NCBI GenBank assembly: GCA_003157015.1
Contig: PMIJ01000028.1
Location: 1 to 64,000, forward strand
Source of the DNA: Bacteroidales bacterium
Lineage (GTDB): Bacteria; Bacteroidota; Bacteroidia; Bacteroidales; VadinHA17
DNA length: 64,000 nucleotides
Direction of reading: 5' to 3'
The notes under the pieces are model-generated. The model ran no database searches, was not told where the DNA came from, and worked only from the letters and a program-made list of their open reading frames with translations. This document shows positions 3,789 through 30,770 of the stretch, piece by piece (position 1 is the first letter of the stretch; each line of letters opens with the position of its first letter). A program made the position numbers and the translations under genes.

Positions 3789-3848
3789 GTGAGAATATCT
3801 TTAATCCATATTATAGTCCTCGTACTCATTATTGCTCATCGCACATGA
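3789..3848 (+). CDS. ilv leader peptide (Ile/Leu/Val-rich attenuator ORF)
   Basis: A 19-codon ORF from GTG to TGA reading MRISLIHIIVLVLIIAHRT. Of the 18 codons after the start, 6 are Ile, 3 Leu and 2 Val, exactly the products of the downstream ilv-leu operon. Known ilv leader peptides of other bacteria have this composition and sense charged tRNA by ribosome stalling. An in-frame TTG at 3765 inside the -7 box is a less likely start. The stop codon abuts CCCGGGAA (3849-3856), which can pair, with one bulged G, with the 5' arm of the terminator at 3888-3894. A stalled ribosome would free this segment and block the terminator; a ribosome at the stop codon would cover it. The composition is seen; the regulation is inferred. 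Confidence 0.82.
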   Translation: MRISLIHIIVLVLIIAHRT

Positions 3849-3883: not shown

Positions 3884-3915
3884 AGCTTTCCGGGAAACCG
3901 GGAAGCTTTTTTTTT
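3884..3915 (+). terminator. ilv attenuator terminator
   Basis: A 10-bp stem (AGCTTTCCGG / CCGGGAAGCT, one G-U pair) with a GAAA loop is followed immediately by nine T residues. It ends 15 bases before ilvD and after the leader ORF, so it must be read through for the operon to be expressed. Confidence 0.88.
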
Positions 3916-3930
3916 AATCTGATTTTTAAA

Positions 3931-5757
3931 ATGAAGAACAATCTCAGAAGTGCAAAGACAACAACCGGAAGGAACATGGCAGGGGCAAGAAGCCTTTGGC
4001 GTGCCAATGGAATGAAGGAAGAACAAATGGGGAAACCAGTTATAGCTATAGTAAATTCATTTTCGCAGTTCGTTCCCGGACATGTTCATCTTCATGAGAT
4101 TGGTCAGGTCATAAAAAAGGAGATTGAAAAGAGAGGTTTATTTGCTGCTGAATTCAACACAATTGCTATCGACGACGGTATTGCGATGGGCCACGAGGGA
4201 ATGCTTTATTCTCTTCCTTCGAGGGAATTGATAGCTGACAGTGTCGAATATGTCTGTAATGCCCATCTTGCCGATGCAATGATTTGTATAAGCAACTGCG
4301 ATAAGATAACTCCAGGAATGCTTATGGCAGCAATGAGAATCAATATCCCGGCGGTTTTTGTATCCGGAGGCCCGATGGAAGCCGGACTTCGTAATGACAA
4401 CTATCTCGATCTTATTGATGCAATGGTTGCAGGCGCCAATGATGAAATCAGCGACAGCGAACTCTACGAGATTGAAAAATCAGCCTGTCCTACATGTGGT
4501 TCATGTTCAGGTATGTTTACTGCCAACTCAATGAATTGCCTGACGGAAGCGCTTGGACTTTCACTTCCCGGGAACGGAACTATAATTGCTACTCACCTGA
4601 ACAGGATAGGGCTTTTTAAAAAAGCTTCAGGATTAATTGTCGAACTGGCAAACAGGTATTACAATGAAGGAGATGATTCAGTACTGCCCCGTTCGATTGC
4701 AACAAAGCTGGCATTTATAAATTCCATGTCACTCGATATAGCTATGGGAGGTTCTACCAACACGGTTCTCCATCTTCTGGCAATTGCCCGGGAGGCAGGC
4801 GTTGACTTTACTATGCGCGATATTGATGAACTTTCACGGAAAATTCCGAATATCTGCAAAGTGGCGCCAAGCTCACATTATCATATTCAGGATGTTAACC
4901 GTGCCGGCGGGGTAATGGCGATAATGGGTGAACTGGAACGCGGCAAACTAATAGACACATCTTCAAAAAGGGTGGATTATCCTACTCTTCGTGAGGCAGT
5001 ATCAGACTGGGATATTCATAGTACAAAAGCCCGGCCGGCAGCTTTTGAAATTTATAAGAGCGCCCCTTCAATGGAAAAAAGTCTGAAGATGGGCTCCCAT
5101 AATACATTGTATAAGGAACTTGATACTGACATGAAAAAAGGATGCATCCGGTCAATTGATCATGCTTACAACACTGATGGCGGCCTGGCTGTTCTCTATG
5201 GCAATATTGCCAGAAAGGGATGTATTGTCAAAACTGCAGGTATTGATCCATCGCTGTTTTCATTCAAAGGCCCTGCCATTATATTCGAATCACAGGATGA
5301 TGCAGCTGAAGGGATACTGAAAGGAGCTGTAAAAGAAGGTGATATTGTCGTTATAAAATATGAAGGTCCAAAGGGGGGACCCGGCATGCAGGAAATGCTA
5401 TATCCTACATCCTATTTGAAATCCAAAGGACTGGATAAAAAATGTGCGCTCATAACCGACGGAAGGTTTTCAGGCGGCACTTCCGGTTTATCCATTGGCC
5501 ATATATCTCCCGAAGCTGCATCATGTGGTGAAATTGCACTGATCAGAACAGGCGATAGTATTGAAATAGATATCAGCGAAAGAAAAATAAATGTTCTCCT
5601 TACTGATAATGAACTAAAAATGAGAAAGGCTGAAGAAGAATCAAAAGGAGACAGTGCATTCAAACCTGAAAAACGCAACAGGATAATTTCCTCAGCATTA
5701 AAAGCTTATGCTGCAAATGTAAGTTCTGCGGATATGGGAGCCGTACGAATGATATAA
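3931..5757 (+). CDS. ilvD: Dihydroxy-acid dehydratase
   Basis: IlvD removes water from 2,3-dihydroxy-isovalerate and 2,3-dihydroxy-3-methylvalerate to give the 2-keto acids of valine and isoleucine. The 608-residue protein has the expected length for the family. Candidate iron-sulfur ligands are present: Cys123 in NCDKITPGM and the CPTCGSC block (Cys186, 189, 192). The C-terminal [16 protein letters not shown] signature is intact. The ATG lies 15 bases after the attenuator terminator and begins [20 protein letters not shown], matching IlvD N-termini. It is the first gene of a nine-gene branched-chain operon and is followed after 70 bases by ilvB. Confidence 0.97.
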
Positions 5758-15654: not shown

Positions 15655-15735
15655 CATTGTAATTCCTTGGTGATTACTTAGTGCCTTTATGCCTTGGTGG
15701 CAAAAAAGGAAGCCACAAAAACACTAAGACAGGAA
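15655..15735. repeat. Degenerate facing repeat after leuB
   Basis: TTCCTTGGTGATTACTTAGTGCC...CTTGGTGGC is followed by GCCACAAAAACACTAAGAC on the opposite sense. It is a diverged CTTTGTG/CACAAAG-type inverted repeat at the end of the ilv-leu operon. Confidence 0.55.
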
Positions 15736-15820: not shown

Positions 15821-15877
15821 ATGTATTATATATCAACATCACATCATCATTTTCAGCTTTGCTGTCAGGCGAGGTGA
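15821..15877 (+). CDS. his leader peptide (three consecutive His codons)
   Basis: An 18-codon ORF, MYYISTSHHHFQLCCQAR, from ATG to TGA. Three consecutive CAT codons (15842-15850) precede the histidine operon, the hallmark of a his leader peptide, although the run is shorter than the seven in enteric bacteria. ATCATTTTCA (15846-15855), which overlaps the His codons, is perfectly complementary to TGAAAATGAT (15875-15884), giving a 10-bp stem disrupted by a ribosome on the His codons. Part of its 3' arm (15881-15886) can instead pair with ATATCA at 15900-15905 next to the terminator. These alternatives fit attenuation by histidyl-tRNA supply. The codons and stems are seen; the mechanism is inferred. 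Confidence 0.82.
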   Translation: MYYISTSHHHFQLCCQAR

Positions 15878-15909
15878 AAATGATATGTTATAAATAGAAA
15901 TATCATATA

Positions 15910-15939
15910 CCCGTCTGAGCAGATCAGACGGGTTTTTTT
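15910..15939 (+). terminator. his attenuator terminator
   Basis: A perfect 9-bp stem CCCGTCTGA / TCAGACGGG with loop GCAGA and a run of seven T. It lies between the leader ORF and hisG, 17 bases before the hisG start. Confidence 0.9.
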
Positions 15940-23228: not shown

Positions 23229-23330
23229 TAGCCACGAACGTGGCTAAATATGAATAACCGCCGGTGCAACCATGTCTACTGTTCATACATTTCAACGGGG
23301 GTTATTTATATATATGGCTCTTTCAGAGCC
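23229..23330. repeat. REP-like cluster of three hairpins after the his operon
   Basis: Three adjacent inverted repeats: TAGCCACG/CGTGGCTA (23229-23246), AATAACC pairing with GGTTATT (23253-23306) with TATGAA/TTCATA as an alternative inner stem, and GGCTCT-TTC-AGAGCC (23316-23330). The GGTGCAACC and CTTTCAGAGCC wording resembles REP elements linked to IS200-like transposases in Bacteroidota, from memory only. The last hairpin could also end his transcription, although its T-run is poor. No transposase gene is in the window. Confidence 0.5.
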
Positions 23331-23389: not shown

Positions 23390-23418
23390 TTGTTTTTCTA
23401 AAAATTAAATTACTTTTG
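23390..23418 (+). promoter_or_regulatory. phe-tyr operon promoter (Bacteroidota type)
   Basis: A TTG -33 element at 23390-23392 and TACTTTTG at 23411-23418, spaced 18 bases, 20 bases before the leader ORF. Confidence 0.7.
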
Positions 23419-23438
23419 TAAGCTCATAACGCAACCAA

Positions 23439-23504
23439 ATGAATATTGTATACAAATATTTTATCTCCTTTTTTTACTTCTATTTTTATTTTAAAAACAG
23501 ATAG
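23439..23504 (+). CDS. phe/tyr leader peptide (Phe/Tyr-rich attenuator ORF)
   Basis: A 21-codon ATG-TAG ORF with six Phe and five Tyr codons; the core at residues 11-18 reads FFYFYFYF. The downstream operon makes both phenylalanine and tyrosine, so one leader appears to sense both. GTATACAAA (23448-23456) and TTTGTATAC (23511-23519) are perfect inverted copies that embrace the Phe/Tyr codons and would be kept apart by a translating ribosome. AGGGG at the stop codon (23503-23507) can pair with TCCCT (23549-23553) in the terminator 5' arm and loop, a plausible antiterminator. Composition and complementarity are seen; regulation is inferred from known pheA leaders. Confidence 0.83.
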   Translation: MNIVYKYFISFFYFYFYFKNR

Positions 23505-23540
23505 GGGATTTTTGTATACAGATAATATTAATTATATGAA

Positions 23541-23574
23541 AGCAAGGGTCCCTCAAAGGGGCCCTTGCTGTTTT
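23541..23574 (+). terminator. phe-tyr attenuator terminator
   Basis: A 12-bp stem AGCAAGGGTCCC / GGGGCCCTTGCT (one G-U pair) with loop TCAAA, followed by GTTTT. It lies 17 bases before pheA. Confidence 0.87.
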
Positions 23575-23590
23575 AACACTATTTGAGAAA

Positions 23591-24421
23591 ATGAAGATAG
23601 CTATACAGGGAGAAACAGGATGTTTTCATGAAGTGGCTGCCAGGCAGTATTTCAGTTATGATGAAATAGATATAGTTCCATGTTCAACTTTCGATCTGGA
23701 ACTTAATACGCTCAAAGATGGCGGGGCAGATTTTGCAGTTATGGCTATTGAAAATGCCAGGTCTGGCAGTATTCTGTACAATTATACTCTTCTCAGGGAA
23801 TCAGGAATGAAGATCCTGGGAGAACATAATCTGCGCATAAAACAGAATTTAATGGCATTGCCCAATCAGAAAATAACAGACATAAGGGAGATACGGTCTC
23901 ACCCAATCGCACTTGCCCAATGCATGACCTATCTTAACCAGTTTCCGGAAATTAGGCTCATAGAGAGCGACGATACGGCGGGAAGCGCCAAACAGATAAG
24001 TGAAACTCAATTGAAAAATGTAGCGGCTATTGCTCCATCCCATGCAGCTGAGATATATGGCCTGGAAATATTGGCCCCCGGAATTGAGACATATAAACAG
24101 AATTACACAAGGTTCCTGGTTGTTGGAAACGAGGAGAAAGGAAATACCAGAGGAAATAAAGTATCAATATGTTTCTCTACCGGTCATAAACCAGGGTCAC
24201 TCGCGAAAGTTCTTGTTAAACTTGCAGAGCTTGAGATTAATCTCTCGAAAATACAATCCGTACCAAGACTTAATGGCGAATGGGAATATATGTTCTACCT
24301 TGATCTGGAGTTAAATAAAAATACAAAATCTGATATAATAAAAAGAGTTCTGGATAAATACACCAGTAACCTTGAAGTATTAGGCGTTTATTTTAAAGGA
24401 GATATGCTATATGATAGTTAA
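23591..24421 (+). CDS. pheA: Prephenate dehydratase
   Basis: PheA converts prephenate to phenylpyruvate. The 276 residues comprise a prephenate dehydratase domain (about 1-180, starting IAIQGETGCFHEVAA, with NYTRF at its end) and a C-terminal ACT domain (about 190-270) that normally binds phenylalanine. The usual ACT signatures GALV and ESRP read GSLA and QSVP here, so feedback response may differ. No chorismate mutase domain is attached; that activity is in the DAHP synthase fusion at 26647. The gene overlaps the aminotransferase by 11 bases. Confidence 0.93.
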   Translation: MKIAIQGETGCFHEVAARQYFSYDEIDIVPCSTFDLELNTLKDGGADFAVMAIENARSGSILYNYTLLRESGMKILGEHNLRIKQNLMALPNQKITDIREIRSHPIALAQCMTYLNQFPEIRLIESDDTAGSAKQISETQLKNVAAIAPSHAAEIYGLEILAPGIETYKQNYTRFLVVGNEEKGNTRGNKVSICFSTGHKPGSLAKVLVKLAELEINLSKIQSVPRLNGEWEYMFYLDLELNKNTKSDIIKRVLDKYTSNLEVLGVYFKGDMLYDS

Positions 24422-25580
24422 ACCAGCTGACCGCACTGGAAATGTGCAGGAATATTATTTTTCACAAAAACTCGCGCAGATTGACAGGATGCGCAGAGAA
24501 GGATCAGATGTCATAAATCTTGGTATAGGAAGCCCTGATCAACCGCCATCGGGAAATACTATTTCTGCACTTATCGATGAAGCTAATAAGCCATCAGCAC
24601 ATGGTTATCAGAGCTATTCAGGAATACCCGCCTTGAGAAAAGCATTCTCCGAATGGTATGGCAAATACTTTCATGTTAAATTAAATCCAGACAACGAGAT
24701 CCTTTTGTTAATGGGAAGCAAGGAGGGTATCATGCATATTAGTATGGCATTTGTTAACCCGGGAGATGAAGTTCTGATCCCTGATCCTGGATACCCGACA
24801 TATTCATCAGTTACAAACCTTGTTGGTGGCATTGTAAGAAAATATAACCTTACGGAAGAAAAAGGTTGGCTCCCCGACCTGGGATCGCTTGAAAAGACCA
24901 ACTTAAGCAAAGTAAAACTGATGTGGGTCAATTATCCGCATATGCCAACAGGAGTCAAAGGATCGACTGACCTGTTTGAAAAGCTTGTGGCATTTTGCCG
25001 GAAACACAAGATTCTGCTCTGTAACGACAATCCATACAGTTTCATCCTGAACAACAAATATATCAGCTTGCTCGCAGTTGACGGAGCAAAAGATATTGCC
25101 CTGGAATTGAATTCATTAAGCAAATCCCATAATATGGCAGGGTGGCGGATTGGGATGGTTGCCGGTCAGAGTGATTATATCAAAACAATCTTGAAAGTTA
25201 AAAGCAATATGGATTCAGGAATGTTTTTAGCAATGCAGAAGGCAGCAGTTGAGGCACTTAATAATCATGAATCCTGGTATGGATTAATAAACAGTGTATA
25301 CTCCAAACGTAGGAGAATTGTTGAGGAAATCATGGCACTTCTGAAATGTAGATACGACAAATCCCAGGTTGGTCTTTTTGTATGGGGATGTATTCCTGAA
25401 GAGATTAAGGACTGCGAATCCTGGATTGAGGACTTATTGATGAAAACACTGGTATTTATTACTCCGGGATTTATTTTTGGAAAGAATGGAGAACGATATA
25501 TCCGTATTTCGCTTTGTGCTACAGAAGAAAGACTGAATGAAGCCAGAAAAAGGATTGAGGGTTATCTCCTTCCCAAATAA
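24411..25580 (+). CDS. PLP-dependent class I/II aminotransferase (probable aromatic)
   Basis: A 389-residue fold-type I aminotransferase: GIGSPDQPPSGNTI near the N-terminus, DPGYPTYSSV, the NYPHMPTG loop where most relatives have NPNNPTG, and the PLP lysine in LNSLSKSHNMAGWRIGM. Its position between prephenate dehydratase and prephenate dehydrogenase, with an 11-base overlap, suggests it transaminates phenylpyruvate and 4-hydroxyphenylpyruvate (or prephenate). Sequence alone does not exclude an aspartate or LL-diaminopimelate-type specificity. Confidence 0.85.
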   Translation: MIVKPADRTGNVQEYYFSQKLAQIDRMRREGSDVINLGIGSPDQPPSGNTISALIDEANKPSAHGYQSYSGIPALRKAFSEWYGKYFHVKLNPDNEILLLMGSKEGIMHISMAFVNPGDEVLIPDPGYPTYSSVTNLVGGIVRKYNLTEEKGWLPDLGSLEKTNLSKVKLMWVNYPHMPTGVKGSTDLFEKLVAFCRKHKILLCNDNPYSFILNNKYISLLAVDGAKDIALELNSLSKSHNMAGWRIGMVAGQSDYIKTILKVKSNMDSGMFLAMQKAAVEALNNHESWYGLINSVYSKRRRIVEEIMALLKCRYDKSQVGLFVWGCIPEEIKDCESWIEDLLMKTLVFITPGFIFGKNGERYIRISLCATEERLNEARKRIEGYLLPK

Positions 25581-25616: not shown

Positions 25617-26462
25617 ATGATAGTAACAGTTGTTGGAATAGGACTCATCGGAGGATCATTAATGGTAGATCTCCGCAAAAGGGCTTTTGCTGATAAAATA
25701 ATAGGTGTTGACACAAATATGCATCACCAGAACATAGCTCTCCTTTGCGGGCTGGTTGATGAAAATGATACCCTGGAAAATGCCATCGATAAAAGCGATC
25801 TGATAATACTGTCTACACCTGTTAATGCTAATTGCAGGATGTTGCCTGGTATCCTCGATAGGATCGCAGGAACTTCCAAGGTCGTTACTGACATGGGTTC
25901 AACGAAAGGAAGCATTGCAAAAGCATCGGAAAAGCATCCCGCCAGAGGAAGATATGTTGCGGTGCATCCGATGGCCGGTACCGAATATTCAGGACCTCTT
26001 GCTGCCATAGGAAAGCTATTTGACTATAAAACTGCTATAATCTGTGACAAAGAGCTCAGTGATGCTGATGCTCTCAATAAAGTTGAAAAAATGCTTGATC
26101 TGTTAAATATGCATAAAGTTTACATGAACTCAAGCGACCATGATGTACATGTTGCATATATATCTCACATTTCACATATTACTTCTTTTTCTCTGGCATT
26201 GAGTGTTCTGGAAAAGGAGCATGAAGAACAAAACATACTTACTCTTGCAGGTGGAGGTTTTGAAAGTACCGTCCGCCTTGCTAAAAGTAACGGCGATACA
26301 TGGGCTCCTATCTTCCTTGAAAATTCACAATATATTTTAGAGGTAATGGATACTTATATCGAAAAAATGAATTTATTCAGAAAAATGATTACAGAAAAAG
26401 ATCTTAATGGGTTGAAGGTACTGATGGAAGAGGCTAACAAAATAAGAAAAATTTTGAACTGA
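25617..26462 (+). CDS. tyrA: Prephenate dehydrogenase
   Basis: TyrA oxidatively decarboxylates prephenate to 4-hydroxyphenylpyruvate for tyrosine. The 281 residues begin with a Rossmann motif, VVGIGLIGGSLMVDL, followed by the TDMGSTKGSI and VAVHPMAGTEYSGP segments and the HDVHVAYISHISH helix typical of TyrA. There is no fused chorismate mutase or ACT domain. It follows the aminotransferase by 36 bases. Confidence 0.93.
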   Translation: MIVTVVGIGLIGGSLMVDLRKRAFADKIIGVDTNMHHQNIALLCGLVDENDTLENAIDKSDLIILSTPVNANCRMLPGILDRIAGTSKVVTDMGSTKGSIAKASEKHPARGRYVAVHPMAGTEYSGPLAAIGKLFDYKTAIICDKELSDADALNKVEKMLDLLNMHKVYMNSSDHDVHVAYISHISHITSFSLALSVLEKEHEEQNILTLAGGGFESTVRLAKSNGDTWAPIFLENSQYILEVMDTYIEKMNLFRKMITEKDLNGLKVLMEEANKIRKILN

Positions 26463-26471
26463 TATGATTCT

Positions 26472-26577
26472 TTTTGACCACAAAGCACTCAAAGAAGGCA
26501 CAAAGCACTCAAAGATAGTATTTTGGTCCTAAGTTCTTTGTGATCTTTGCGTTGACTTTTTATGATCTTTGTGGTTA
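26472..26577. repeat. Intergenic CACAAAG/CTTTGTG inverted repeat (tyrA-aroF)
   Basis: The left arm has GACCACAAAGCACTCAAAG and GGCACAAAGCACTCAAAG; the right arm has TTCTTTGTGATCTTTGCG and GATCTTTGTGGTT. The arms face each other. The orientation is opposite to the CTCTGTG copies (CACAAAG arm first). Confidence 0.72.
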
Positions 26578-26646
26578 ATGTATTTCATTATTCAACAGGT
26601 TTAGATCATAAAAGAATAAGTAAAATAAAAACATATATTAAAAAAA

Positions 26647-27762
26647 ATGGAATTAAAACTTAAGAATTCCCTCATTAAAGACTGGAAAGGATATAAGGGC
26701 AGGCCTTTTCTGATTTCCGGTCCCTGCAGCGCCGAAACTGAGGAACAGGTGATGGAGACTGCTGAGCAATTGGCTCAGATAAAAGAGGTCAGTTTGTTTC
26801 GCGCCGGAATATGGAAACCCAGAACACGCCCAAATTCCTTTGAAGGGGTGGGTACTGAAGGGTTAAAATGGCTGAGAAGAGTGAAGCAGGAAACCGGTCT
26901 CCTGGTAGGTACTGAAGTGGCAAACGAAAAACATGTCTATGAGGCCTTAAAATATGGCATTGATATGCTCTGGATAGGCGCCAGAACGTCCGTAAATCCC
27001 TTCACAGTACAGGAGATCTCCGACGCCTTGAACGGTGTTGATGTTATGGTATTGGTAAAGAACCCGATTAACCCCGATATCGAACTATGGATCGGTGCAA
27101 TAGAACGTATTGCCAGGGCAGGTATTACACGGATAGGCGCTATTCATCGCGGTTTCTCGTCATATGAAAAAACATTGTACCGTAATCAGCCTAACTGGCA
27201 ATTACCAATCGAACTCAGGAGAAGAATCCCTGACCTTCCGATAATTTGTGACCCAAGCCACATAGGCGGAGCCCGGCAGTTTCTTCATGAGATTTCCCAG
27301 AAGGCAATGGATCTTAATTTCGACGGGTTAATGCTCGAATCACATATAGATCCTTCAAAGGCTTTAAGCGATGCTGCCCAGCAGCTTACGCCAAACGATC
27401 TTAAGGAACTTCTGAGCAGACTTATTCTTCGCAACCCGAGTACCTCTGATCCCAGATTACTTGATGTTCTTGGCGAATTAAGACAACAGATAGATGTTTA
27501 TGATGATCATCTTCTCGATCTTATGGAAAAAAGAATGAAAGTTGCAGAAACTATCGGCCGTTATAAAAAGGAAAATAATATCACTATCTTGCAGACGACC
27601 CGATGGGATGAAATTATTAATAAAGTCCTCATTAAAGGTCTTGCAAAAGGACTTAGCACCGAGTTGATTGATACTATTTTCAGAGCAATTCACCAGGAGT
27701 CTATCAACCATCAGATGAAGGTAATGAATAATGGAGTCAAAGATCGTATTGAAGAAAAGTAA
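26647..27762 (+). CDS. DAHP synthase fused to chorismate mutase
   Basis: The N-terminal domain (about 1-260) is a type I-beta 3-deoxy-7-phosphoheptulonate synthase with SGPCSAETEEQ, RAGIWKPRTRPNSFEGVG and CDPSHIGGARQ, condensing PEP and erythrose-4-phosphate. The C-terminal part (about 275-355) is an AroQ-type chorismate mutase: LRQQIDVYDDHLLDLMEKRMKVAETIGRYK with the usual charged active-site helix. In related fusions the mutase domain also mediates prephenate inhibition of the synthase. The gene supplies the start of the shikimate route and the step feeding PheA and TyrA, which lie just upstream. Confidence 0.93.
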   Translation: MELKLKNSLIKDWKGYKGRPFLISGPCSAETEEQVMETAEQLAQIKEVSLFRAGIWKPRTRPNSFEGVGTEGLKWLRRVKQETGLLVGTEVANEKHVYEALKYGIDMLWIGARTSVNPFTVQEISDALNGVDVMVLVKNPINPDIELWIGAIERIARAGITRIGAIHRGFSSYEKTLYRNQPNWQLPIELRRRIPDLPIICDPSHIGGARQFLHEISQKAMDLNFDGLMLESHIDPSKALSDAAQQLTPNDLKELLSRLILRNPSTSDPRLLDVLGELRQQIDVYDDHLLDLMEKRMKVAETIGRYKKENNITILQTTRWDEIINKVLIKGLAKGLSTELIDTIFRAIHQESINHQMKVMNNGVKDRIEEK

Positions 27763-27876: not shown

Positions 27877-29127
27877 ATGGAAAGATATTTAGAACCGTCT
27901 GTAATTAAAGGAACTGTAAAGGCTCCATCTTCAAAAAGCATGACCCAGCGAGCAATAGCTGCTGCGTTACTGGCTGACGGTCAGAGTATAATCCATAATC
28001 CTTCATATTGCGACGATTCACTGGCGGCAATGAGCATTGCAGTCGGATTGGGTGCCAGGGTTGAACCTCAGGTTAACGAACTAAAGATAAATGGTTCTGC
28101 CATACTGAAAGAGCCCAAGCTTAATTGCGGTGAATCGGGCCTTGCAATCCGTATGTTTTCCCCTATTGCTGCCTTATATCCTGCTGAAATTACTATGGTT
28201 GGAGCAAATTCTCTTAAAAAGAGACCTATGTTCATGATTGAAGAAGCTTTAAATCAGCTTGGAGTTAAATGTACAAGCTCTGGCGGCTTTCTTCCCCTTG
28301 CAATCCGTGGACCCCTAGCGGGTGGAAAATGTGAAATAGACGGGTCAGTAAGCAGCCAGTTGTTAACCGGCTTGCTCATGGCTCTCCCACTTGCTTCAGG
28401 GAACTCTGAAATCAGGGTAAATAACCTTAAGAGCAAACCCTATATCGATATGACCATCCAACTGCTGAATTCTTTCGGAATAATAGTTGAAAATTCAGGT
28501 TACAGTTTGTTCCGTATCAGGGGAAATCAGAAATATACGCCTCACAGCTATACGGTTGAGGGCGACTGGAGCGGAGGAGCCTTTCTTCTTGTGGCAGGCG
28601 CCATTAATGGTCAGCTGTGTATTAAGGGACTTAAGCCCGACAGTTTGCAGAGCGACATGTCAATAATTAACCCGTTAAAGAAAGCCGGTGCGCAAATGAA
28701 TATTACTGATCAACAGATTGAGATATCCCGATCTGATTTAAAAGCTTTTGAATTTGATGCCACAGAATCGCCGGATCTGTTTCCTCCTCTCGTTGCACTT
28801 GCATCATATTGTGAAGGAGTGTCAGCCATAAAAGGAGTATCCAGATTAATTTATAAGGAGAGTGACCGGGCCAAAACCCTTAAGGAGGAGTTTGGAAAAA
28901 TGAATATCAAGATTGAAATACATGATGATCATATGCATGTTACCGGAGGGAAACCACTCAGTGCCAGAGTAGAATCGCATGATGACCACCGCATTGCTAT
29001 GGCTCTCGCAGTCGCGTCCCTCAAAGCTTCAGGAAAAGTCTCAATCAGGGACTCGCAATGCGTTGCAAAATCTTATCCTGGTTTCTTTGATGATTTAAAA
29101 CATCTTGGCGCTTCTGTTCATGAATGA
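27877..29127 (+). CDS. aroA: 3-phosphoshikimate 1-carboxyvinyltransferase (EPSP synthase)
   Basis: AroA transfers enolpyruvyl from PEP to shikimate-3-phosphate. The 416 residues have KAPSSKSMTQRAIAAALLADG at the N-terminus and the DHRIAMALAVASLKASG motif near the C-terminus. The PEP-site loop LGNAGTAMRP of enteric AroA corresponds to CGESGLAIRM here, the diverged form I associate with Bacteroidota enzymes. It ends the Phe/Tyr operon; the other common shikimate genes are not in the window. Confidence 0.94.
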   Translation: MERYLEPSVIKGTVKAPSSKSMTQRAIAAALLADGQSIIHNPSYCDDSLAAMSIAVGLGARVEPQVNELKINGSAILKEPKLNCGESGLAIRMFSPIAALYPAEITMVGANSLKKRPMFMIEEALNQLGVKCTSSGGFLPLAIRGPLAGGKCEIDGSVSSQLLTGLLMALPLASGNSEIRVNNLKSKPYIDMTIQLLNSFGIIVENSGYSLFRIRGNQKYTPHSYTVEGDWSGGAFLLVAGAINGQLCIKGLKPDSLQSDMSIINPLKKAGAQMNITDQQIEISRSDLKAFEFDATESPDLFPPLVALASYCEGVSAIKGVSRLIYKESDRAKTLKEEFGKMNIKIEIHDDHMHVTGGKPLSARVESHDDHRIAMALAVASLKASGKVSIRDSQCVAKSYPGFFDDLKHLGASVHE

Positions 29128-29243: not shown

Positions 29244-29318
29244 ATGAAAAAACAGATGTTTTATATTTGGTCGTGGCGTAGCTTATCCGATTCAGCTGTG
29301 AAACAAGCCATTATATAA
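29244..29318 (+). CDS. trp leader peptide (Trp-Ser-Trp attenuator ORF)
   Basis: A short ORF with two Trp codons separated by one Ser (IWSWRSLSD, Trp codons at 29268-29270 and 29274-29276), 24 codons from ATG 29244 or 20 from ATG 29256, ending in TAA. CTGTGAA-A-CA (29296-29305) is complementary, with one bulge, to TGTTCACAG (29351-29359) covering the terminator loop and both inner arm ends. That would be the antiterminator when a ribosome stalls at the Trp codons. Tandem Trp codons before a tryptophan synthase gene are the classical trp leader sign. The mechanism is inferred. Confidence 0.82.
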   Translation: MKKQMFYIWSWRSLSDSAVKQAII

Positions 29319-29342
29319 CATTTATAAAATATATATTTATAG

Positions 29343-29371
29343 AGGCACACTGTTCACAGTGTGCCTTTTTT
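29343..29371 (+). terminator. trp attenuator terminator
   Basis: A perfect 10-bp stem AGGCACACTG / CAGTGTGCCT with TTCA loop followed by a run of T. It lies about 38 bases before trpB. Confidence 0.9.
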
Positions 29372-29408: not shown

Positions 29409-30770
29409 ATGGAAAAGATCAGAAAAATCACTTTAAGTGAAAGCGAAATGCCAAGGCAATGGTATAATATCCAGGCAGATATGCCTAACAAGCCAATGCC
29501 TCCATTGAACCCGGCTACGAAACAACCGATTGGACCTCAGGACCTTGCCGCAGTTTTTCCCATGGAGCTTATTAAACAGGAAGTTTCCTCAGAAAGGTAT
29601 ATTGATATTCCTGATGAAGTACTTGACCTCTATGCAACTTTTCGTCCTTCTCCTATATTCAGGGCATATAACCTTGAAAAGGCGCTTGGTACAAAAAGTA
29701 AAATCTATTACAAATATGAAGGTGGCAATTATTCAGGATCTCATAAAGCCAATACTGCAATTCCACAGGCATATTACAACAAAATGGAAGGAATAAAAAG
29801 AATTACTACCGAAACCGGAGCCGGACAGTGGGGAAGTGCAATGAGTTTCGCGTGTCACCATTTCGGAATTGAACTACTTGTTTTTATGGTAAAAGTCAGC
29901 TATGACCAGAAACCCGGTCGTAAGCTCCTGATGAACACCTATAATGCAAAGGTAGTTGCTTCTCCAAGCACTATGACCGCAGCCGGAAGAAGAGTTCTTG
30001 AACTTGACCCTGATTCACCGGGAAGCCTGGGTATAGCTATTTCTGAAGCTATGGAAGTAGCAATACAGGATCCATACACTAAATATTCCCTTGGAAGCGT
30101 TCTCAACCATGTTATGCTTCACCAGACAATTATAGGCCAGGAAGCACTTCTTCAAATGGAAAAAGCAGGCGATTATCCCGATGTTGTGATAGGTTGTTTC
30201 GGGGGAGGTTCAAACTTCTCAGGAATAGCATTTCCGTTCCTTCGCGAGCGGTTGCTTAATGGAAAAAACATCAGGCTGCTGACTGTTGAGCCCTCTTCCT
30301 GCCCTAAACTTACAAAAGGGAAATTTATGTACGACTTCGGCGATTCGGCCGGAATGACTCCTCTCCTTCCGATGTACACCCTCGGGCATAATTTTATACC
30401 TGCCAAAATACATGCAGGCGGATTACGCTATCATGGCGCAGGAGTGCTGGTCAGTCAGCTTCTCAAAGACGGATTTATTGAAGCAAGAGCAAAGATGCAG
30501 AGAGAGTGCTTCGAAGCCGGTGTCCTCTTTGCAAGGGCTGAAGGTATTTTACCTGCTCCGGAATCTACATATGCCATTGCCGGCGCTCTGGATGAAGCTA
30601 GAAGAGCTGATCTTGAAGGTGTCTCAAAAACGATACTCTTTAATCTCAGCGGCCATGGTCATTTCGATATTTCTGCCTATGAAAAATATTTCGAAAATAA
30701 TCTTCCAGATCATGAAATGACAAGCATGGAGGTAGATGAAGCGATAGCTAAAATTAATATCCCGGGTTGA
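29409..30770 (+). CDS. trpB: Tryptophan synthase beta chain, TrpB2 type
   Basis: At 453 residues and with the N-terminal segment PRQWYNIQADMPNKPMPPLNPAT this is the TrpB2 subclass, which joins indole and serine with PLP and often works without TrpA. The PLP lysine is in SGSHKANTAIPQAYY, the catalytic Glu in TTETGAGQWGSA, and the phosphate-binding GCFGGGSNFSG motif is intact. It stands alone: no trpA, trpC, trpD, trpE or trpF is in the window. It nevertheless has its own Trp-codon leader and terminator. An indole-salvage or supplementary role is possible. Confidence 0.93.
   Translation: MEKIRKITLSESEMPRQWYNIQADMPNKPMPPLNPATKQPIGPQDLAAVFPMELIKQEVSSERYIDIPDEVLDLYATFRPSPIFRAYNLEKALGTKSKIYYKYEGGNYSGSHKANTAIPQAYYNKMEGIKRITTETGAGQWGSAMSFACHHFGIELLVFMVKVSYDQKPGRKLLMNTYNAKVVASPSTMTAAGRRVLELDPDSPGSLGIAISEAMEVAIQDPYTKYSLGSVLNHVMLHQTIIGQEALLQMEKAGDYPDVVIGCFGGGSNFSGIAFPFLRERLLNGKNIRLLTVEPSSCPKLTKGKFMYDFGDSAGMTPLLPMYTLGHNFIPAKIHAGGLRYHGAGVLVSQLLKDGFIEARAKMQRECFEAGVLFARAEGILPAPESTYAIAGALDEARRADLEGVSKTILFNLSGHGHFDISAYEKYFENNLPDHEMTSMEVDEAIAKINIPG

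Follow-up and report, generated by a model that had tools for sequence, protein, structure and literature searches.

Leader-peptide attenuation, including leaders with codons for more than one amino acid, is textbook knowledge, as is the 1-2-3-4 strand scheme with its 1:2 protector helix. In Escherichia coli, the pheL leader of pheA contains Phe codons and no Tyr codons and follows the 1:2 / 2:3 / 3:4 scheme. No tyrA lies behind pheA there, and control is separate, with pheL acting on pheA and TyrR on the Tyr genes. The locus described here likewise has a leader peptide before pheA, but its leader holds both Phe and Tyr codons and precedes a joint operon. Multivalent attenuators tested experimentally in E. 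coli are those of thr (Thr, Ile) and ilvGMEDA (Ile, Val, Leu), where one leader carries codons for several amino acids, as here, although the amino acids differ.

Regulation of E. coli pheA by its leader peptide depends on charged tRNA-Phe (PMC11802643). In Corynebacterium glutamicum, a Phe-Tyr-Phe leader precedes a DAHP synthase gene (aroR-aroF; PMC4046766, PMC11802643). From these reports aroR appears to be the closest experimentally tested Phe/Tyr leader, with three aromatic codons in a row compared to 11 at our locus, in another phylum and before another operon. Within the Bacteroidota, a transcriptome study of 2021 on Flavobacterium psychrophilum described a structured element 5' of pheA, as here, which is conserved in other Flavobacteriaceae and has no Rfam match, and saw strong indications of leader-peptide attenuation ahead of amino-acid operons (PMC9723704); for the pheA element, the sections of that article used here mention neither a peptide nor Phe/Tyr codons, and they draw no link to operon content. 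For Bacteroides thetaiotaomicron, a 2005 table drawn from a web database includes pheA>hisHb>aroA-aroQ>tyrA, an operon of the same type, with a putative attenuator, and the corresponding part of that source names neither a leader peptide nor an amino-acid specificity (PMC1173090). Short ORFs reminiscent of leader peptides were also noted in long 5' UTRs of this species (PMC7366714). No description of a dual Phe/Tyr leader in Bacteroidota was found in the open-access literature, a scope that most subscription papers fall outside.

Among RNA families, Phe_leader (RF01859) matched the locus with 25.5 bits (E 0.019), below its gathering score of 55; it has the most bits of the weak matches, and rli33 has the lower E-value (0.0096). 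A cut-off of E 10 gave 23 matches for positions 23390-23600, and Bacteroid-trp (RF01692) is not one of them.

The leader, its operon and the proposed switch

The window (the whole stretch of 64,000 nt that was analysed) contains the features collected in Table 1. A preliminary description had placed a leader with six Phe and five Tyr codons, controlling a joint Phe-Tyr-shikimate operon, at 23390-23590. The interval was right: a script found the same ORF again, the codons were counted in it as described, and Pfam domains match the gene order pheA, aminotransferase, tyrA, DAHP synthase/chorismate mutase and aroA. The aminotransferase is probably aromatic. The short, presumably translated ORF is rich in codons for the product of the operon, as is usual for an attenuator, and its six Phe and five Tyr codons before pheA and tyrA would serve as control codons for at least two operon products, as in multivalent attenuators.

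Table 1. Positions of the leader, RNA strands, genes and further leaders in the window
Feature	Position	Strand	Sequence or remarks
-7 promoter box	23411-23418	+	TAnnTTTG (TACTTTTG); Bacteroidota housekeeping type; 20 nt before leader ATG
Leader ORF	23439-23504	+	MNIVYKYFISFFYFYFYFKNR-stop; 21 codons
Control codons	within 23439-23504	+	Tyr 5, 7, 13, 15, 17; Phe 8, 11, 12, 14, 16, 18
Strand 1	23447-23468	+	TGTATACAAA (23447-23456) and ATCTCC (23463-23468); pairs with strand 2
Strand 2	23504-23520	+	GGGGATTTTTGTATACA; shares last base of stop codon; partner is strand 1 or 3
Strand 3	23541-23553	+	AGCAAGGGTCCCT; pairs with strand 2 (antiterminator) or strand 4 (terminator)
Strand 4	23557-23569	+	AGGGGCCCTTGCT; terminator hairpin with strand 3, tail GTTTTAAC
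pheA, prephenate dehydratase	23591-24421	+	Pfam PDT; ACT match below Pfam cut-off
Class I/II aminotransferase	24411-25580	+	Pfam Aminotran_1_2
tyrA, prephenate dehydrogenase	25617-26462	+	Pfam PDH_N/PDH_C
DAHP synthase fused to chorismate mutase	26647-27762	+	Pfam DAHP_synth_1+CM_2
aroA, EPSP synthase	27877-29127	+	Pfam EPSP_synthase; last gene, then separate Trp leader
Branched-chain leader, GTG start	3789-3848		MRISLIHIIVLVLIIAHRT; terminator-like hairpin ~3884-3907; before ilv-leu genes (by eye), ilvD at 3931 (by eye)
His leader	15821-15877		MYYISTSHHHFQLCCQAR; -7 box; strong terminator ~15907-15935; before hisG (by eye)
Trp leader	29244-29318		MKKQMFYIWSWRSLSDSAVKQAII, W-S-W; terminator 29341-29368; before PALP-family, trpB-like gene at 29409

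The -7 box corresponds to the consensus TAnnTTTG as printed in PMC9723704, which puts a candidate promoter close upstream of the leader ORF, where an attenuator would have it. Behind the ORF, strand 2 can pair with strand 1 (-13.4 kcal/mol, computed for the duplex) or with strand 3, and the latter pairing (23505-23515 with 23542-23552) is an unbroken helix of 11 bp with 4 G-U pairs; as a free duplex, 2:3 has 12 pairs and a computed -15.5 kcal/mol. The 3:4 terminator hairpin was computed at -23.5 kcal/mol, and its T tail is short (only GTTTTAAC), which counts against an attenuator. The fold predicted for the full transcript without a ribosome consists of 1:2 and 3:4. With up to one mismatch allowed, the core of strand 2, GGGATTTTTGTATAC, occurs nowhere else in the genome.

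Stalled ribosomes were modelled by forcing the covered bases, counted from the start of the A-site codon, to stay unpaired in an RNA that ends just past the 2:3 pairing in strand 3; the model describes thermodynamics, not kinetics. With the ribosome at codons 1-18, 11 antiterminator pairs formed, at codon 19 there were 10, and at codons 20-22 none. The RNA downstream of the ribosome alone had about -16 kcal/mol up to the last Phe codon and about -1 kcal/mol at the stop. As the covered stretch grows from 10 to 18 nt, the boundary shifts from codon 21 to codon 18, and therefore all Phe and Tyr codons lie on the antitermination side at 10-17 nt covered, while the last Phe codon falls off it at 18 nt. 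In this model the antiterminator is predicted to exclude the terminator, to be free when the ribosome stalls at control codons and to be masked at the stop, which is the behaviour expected of an attenuator. Both amino acids are represented among the earliest control codons, Tyr 5, Tyr 7 and Phe 8.

The locus very probably attenuates transcription by way of a translating ribosome and responds to Phe as well as Tyr. RNA synthesis would start a few bases 3' of the -7 box, and a ribosome would translate the 21-codon leader behind the RNA polymerase. With charged tRNA-Phe and tRNA-Tyr both ample, the ribosome would reach the stop codon and cover strand 2, so that the 3:4 terminator forms. If either tRNA ran short, the ribosome would stall on one of the five Tyr or six Phe control codons, strand 2 would be free to pair with strand 3, and the polymerase would read into the five genes from pheA to aroA as one transcript. 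If no ribosome were present, 1:2 pairing would let the terminator form.

Conservation of the leader and its tie to operon content

PheA homologues were found in 92/117 genomes of the same family, 111/247 of the order and 257/296 of the phylum. Upstream stretches were read for 88 of the 92 family loci and for 105 of the 111 order loci, the remainder of the latter being in the family set or at contig ends. The phylum-search set consists of the 29 best matches that came as loci; among these, L293 and L306 repeat genomes of the order set, whereas L282 and L304 belong to another class. A leader was scored where a short ATG ORF with at least six Phe or Tyr in 12 residues lay within 400 nt upstream of pheA.

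This threshold was reached in 80/88 family loci, our own included (2.7% in shuffles; 3 on the antisense strand), in 91/105 other loci of the order (2.5%; 7) and in all 29 phylum-search loci (3.8%; 0), leaving 8 family and 14 order loci below it. Under settings of up to 60 codons, 500 nt and three start codons, at least six Phe/Tyr were reached in 11/13 Bacteroidota loci and 0/18 loci of other phyla in a named-genome set (31 of 80 loci, L140-L170). Outside the class, a leader was present in 4/22 upstream stretches, namely 2/20 (L328, L329) plus the two phylum-search loci L282 and L304, none of them drawn at random. In five loci (L054, L055, L057, L058, L141), pheA has no leader and lies, by eye, directly behind an apparent leuB 3' end; pheA may have moved into a leu operon there.

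The other parts of the switch accompany the leader. A TAnnTTTG box stands within the 45 nt that precede the leader ATG in 72/80 family leaders (3/350 background windows), 62/91 order leaders (12/318) and 14/29 phylum-search leaders (7/125). A terminator-like hairpin of -10 kcal/mol or lower follows 192 of 200 leaders, compared to 16 of 600 shuffled stretches, so that an intrinsic terminator stands between leader and first gene as in an attenuator. The energy difference between stall and stop exceeds at least 38 of 40 shuffles in 62/79 family, 72/89 order and 28/29 phylum-search relatives, a measure that counts any structure in the freed RNA and not the 2:3 helix alone. Trp was considered as a third leader signal and rejected, as it shows no clear excess (0.9% of residues; 38/200 leaders hold one).

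Codon content was compared with operon content in 80 order and family genomes, 78 with a leader at threshold and two with a weaker one (G011, G357). Low-Tyr genomes were deliberately included and 14 others left out, several of them from families already represented; the order genomes in the sample all have a leader, leaderless ones having been left out. In 67 of the 80, tyrA lies behind pheA (same contig and strand, within 9 kb), and all 67 leaders have at least one core Tyr, 66 of them at least two. For core Tyr and tyrA linkage alone, the Mann-Whitney value is 6e-5. A rule by which Tyr codons follow tyrA alone was given up, since 4 of the 11 tyrA-unlinked genomes with a threshold leader are exceptions to it, with 2-5 core Tyr (G153, G249, G326, and G346, whose locus is near a contig end). 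In each of these four, DAHP synthase-chorismate mutase follows pheA directly, and the rule was therefore widened post hoc to tyrA and/or DAHP synthase. Leaders of such operons contain Tyr in 71/71 cases, and at least two Tyr in 70.

Eight genomes (G012, G130, G140, G150, G205, G322, G327, G357) have no match to an aminotransferase, tyrA or DAHP synthase behind pheA within the stretch read, which is up to 9 kb and reaches only to the contig end in G012 (0.6 kb), G357 (4.6 kb) and G205 (5.1 kb). Their leaders hold no core Tyr in five cases and one in three; the eight come from five families (f1, f15, f25, f35, f90) and are not eight independent events. Families f1 and f15 also include members with the joint operon and a dual leader. 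The weak leader of G011, with 5 Phe, has no Tyr; no tyrA or DAHP synthase was found behind its pheA before the contig ends after about 0.65 kb, and this genome was left out of the eight. With G011 counted as a ninth lone-pheA genome, operon content and Tyr are associated by Fisher's test at 4e-11. The tyrA query matches only fairly close tyrA genes, and a distant tyrA could therefore be missed in the lone-pheA genomes. In G327, the PF02153 search found no tyrA, yet a tyrA fragment stands at the contig start before DAHP synthase; that search can therefore miss a tyrA.

A split-off aminotransferase/tyrA operon was readable upstream in 7/8 lone-pheA genomes; the G327 contig begins inside tyrA. 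It has its own Phe/Tyr leader and terminator in 6/7, with 3-6 Tyr per 12-residue window. Examples of these leaders are MNNTFGYYAFYYYFFYNN (G130), MAPVHTYYAWSFFFFYFQNKRGHAV (G150), MIKNISVFAYFYYYFYFSKK (G140) and MIKNISVFAYFYYYFYFSNK (G322), and two pairs among the split-off cases are of the same genus (G140 and G322; G205 and G357). G205 and G357 have two leaders in series before the split-off operon, each with its own terminator. The split operon of G012 has no ORF at threshold and two weaker ones (4 and 5 Phe/Tyr in 12), which speaks against the codon-operon reading. Each of these weak ORFs precedes, by eye, a hairpin with a T run (L351), and G012 may carry a weaker serial leader pair.

Serial modules of Phe/Tyr leader and terminator stand before an aminotransferase-tyrA-DAHP synthase-aroA operon in two genomes of one genus (L323, reverse strand 2249-2489; L324, 183-431), by eye with an evident -7 box at the first module only.

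These comparisons bear on whether the attenuator is real but answers to Phe alone, the Tyr codons being carried along or merely slowing the ribosome. The codons TTT and TAT are one step apart, Phe and Tyr swap at several core positions among the relatives, and the Phe-Tyr-Phe leader of C. glutamicum aroR reportedly responds to Phe but not Tyr, which counts against dual sensing (PMC11802643). Against this stand the near disappearance of Tyr with lone pheA, its presence throughout operons with tyrA and/or DAHP synthase, the Tyr-containing leaders of the split-off operons and the model, where Tyr stalls are as effective as Phe stalls. A response to Phe alone is therefore considered unlikely.

The attenuator with both codon sets before a joint operon, as proposed in the preliminary description, is thus backed by wide conservation and by codons that track the operon products. 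The dual codon set is real, and the switch is of the classical kind and common to many relatives; this comparison of sequences gives good support to dual sensing, and a dual response is likely. Across many of the order's families, and in additional ones elsewhere in the class, a single RNA switch appears to serve the Phe and Tyr genes. Somewhat less firmly, we favour the view that an old attenuator, common to most pheA loci read in the class, acts as an OR gate for Phe or Tyr shortage, and that splitting of the operon brings a new codon set to the leader. Lone pheA would then keep a leader with Phe only, and the split-off aminotransferase/tyrA/DAHP synthase operon would have its own Phe/Tyr leader, or two in series in one genus. 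Operon breakup in several lineages would provide a natural experiment on how attenuators change specificity.

The inverted repeat, the RNA fold and the coding run

A perfect 9-nt inverted repeat enclosing the leader codons had been put forward as a layout not previously described. The repeat is exact (GTATACAAA, 23448-23456, and TTTGTATAC, 23511-23519), but the strand pairings of the leader RNA identify it as the 1:2 protector helix of the classical scheme, with strand 1 inside the leader ORF, and a new layout is not supported.

Pairing was followed in 46 same-genus sequences; these are kin, and the shuffle counts are therefore not probabilities. Two-sided changes in the 1:2 helix occur in 24 cells, compared to 7.9 +/- 3.5 in shuffles (0/500 as high). 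Counted by pairs, five carry two-sided changes, which is not unusual: 102/500 shuffles reach five and one slid version has six. In the 2:3 helix, 92.5% of cells are paired, versus 38.7-71.5% when the helix is slid; no compensatory change was present in the alignment of this helix, where strand 3 is also constrained by strand 4.

A repeat of this kind, perfect over 9 nt and with arms of regulator-like length, could instead be an operator at which a repressor or activator of the operon binds the DNA. We regard this as very improbable, because one arm lies within the leader ORF and the other 3' of its stop, the substitutions seen in the 46 relatives are those typical of RNA (A-U to G-U to G-C, U-A to C-G), two-sided changes affect more cells than in shuffles, and strand 2 pairs with strand 3 as well.

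The whole leader RNA is more stable than shuffles (z -4.83), which would also suit a ligand-binding RNA, a riboswitch or T-box, that controls the terminator while the ORF is incidental. This explanation is likewise very improbable: no Rfam family reached its gathering score in the window, no T-box was among the weak matches for 23390-23600, the Phe/Tyr-rich ORF is kept though leader peptides and terminators of the relatives differ widely in sequence, and codon content tracks operon content.

A chance origin of the Phe/Tyr run in T-rich DNA, as its T- and A-rich codons (TTT, TTC, TAT, TAC) might suggest, can be dismissed, since its best 12-residue window, with 10 Phe/Tyr, is equalled in 0 of 2000 dinucleotide shuffles of the 400-nt stretch before pheA and conservation across the order and beyond refutes it. 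The DNA pattern for FYFYFYF has a single exact match in the 5.2-Mb genome, which is the leader ORF; with one mismatch allowed there is one further match, compared to three for a backward control pattern.

Other leaders and elements in the window

The whole window was scanned on both strands for a -7 box, a short ATG ORF and a terminator. Only three leaders were found, for His, Phe/Tyr and Trp, and each matches the gene or operon behind it. Together with the GTG-start branched-chain leader (Table 1), four gene sets of the window (ilv, his, phe/tyr and trp) have matching leaders, which suggests that attenuation is common for amino-acid genes in this lineage.

The region 23229-23330 lies between hisI/E and the promoter of pheA and contains a hairpin (TAGCCACG/CGTGGCTA) and GGCTCTTTCAGAGCC with a T-rich tail, as well as a 25-nt inverted repeat of 80% identity at 23245-23314; it is perhaps the terminator of the his operon. 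A repeat-like stretch with cacaaagcactcaaag / ctttgtgatctttgcg motifs (26470-26580) was noted by eye in the gap that separates tyrA from the DAHP synthase gene, as was one resembling it before the his operon (15655-15720).
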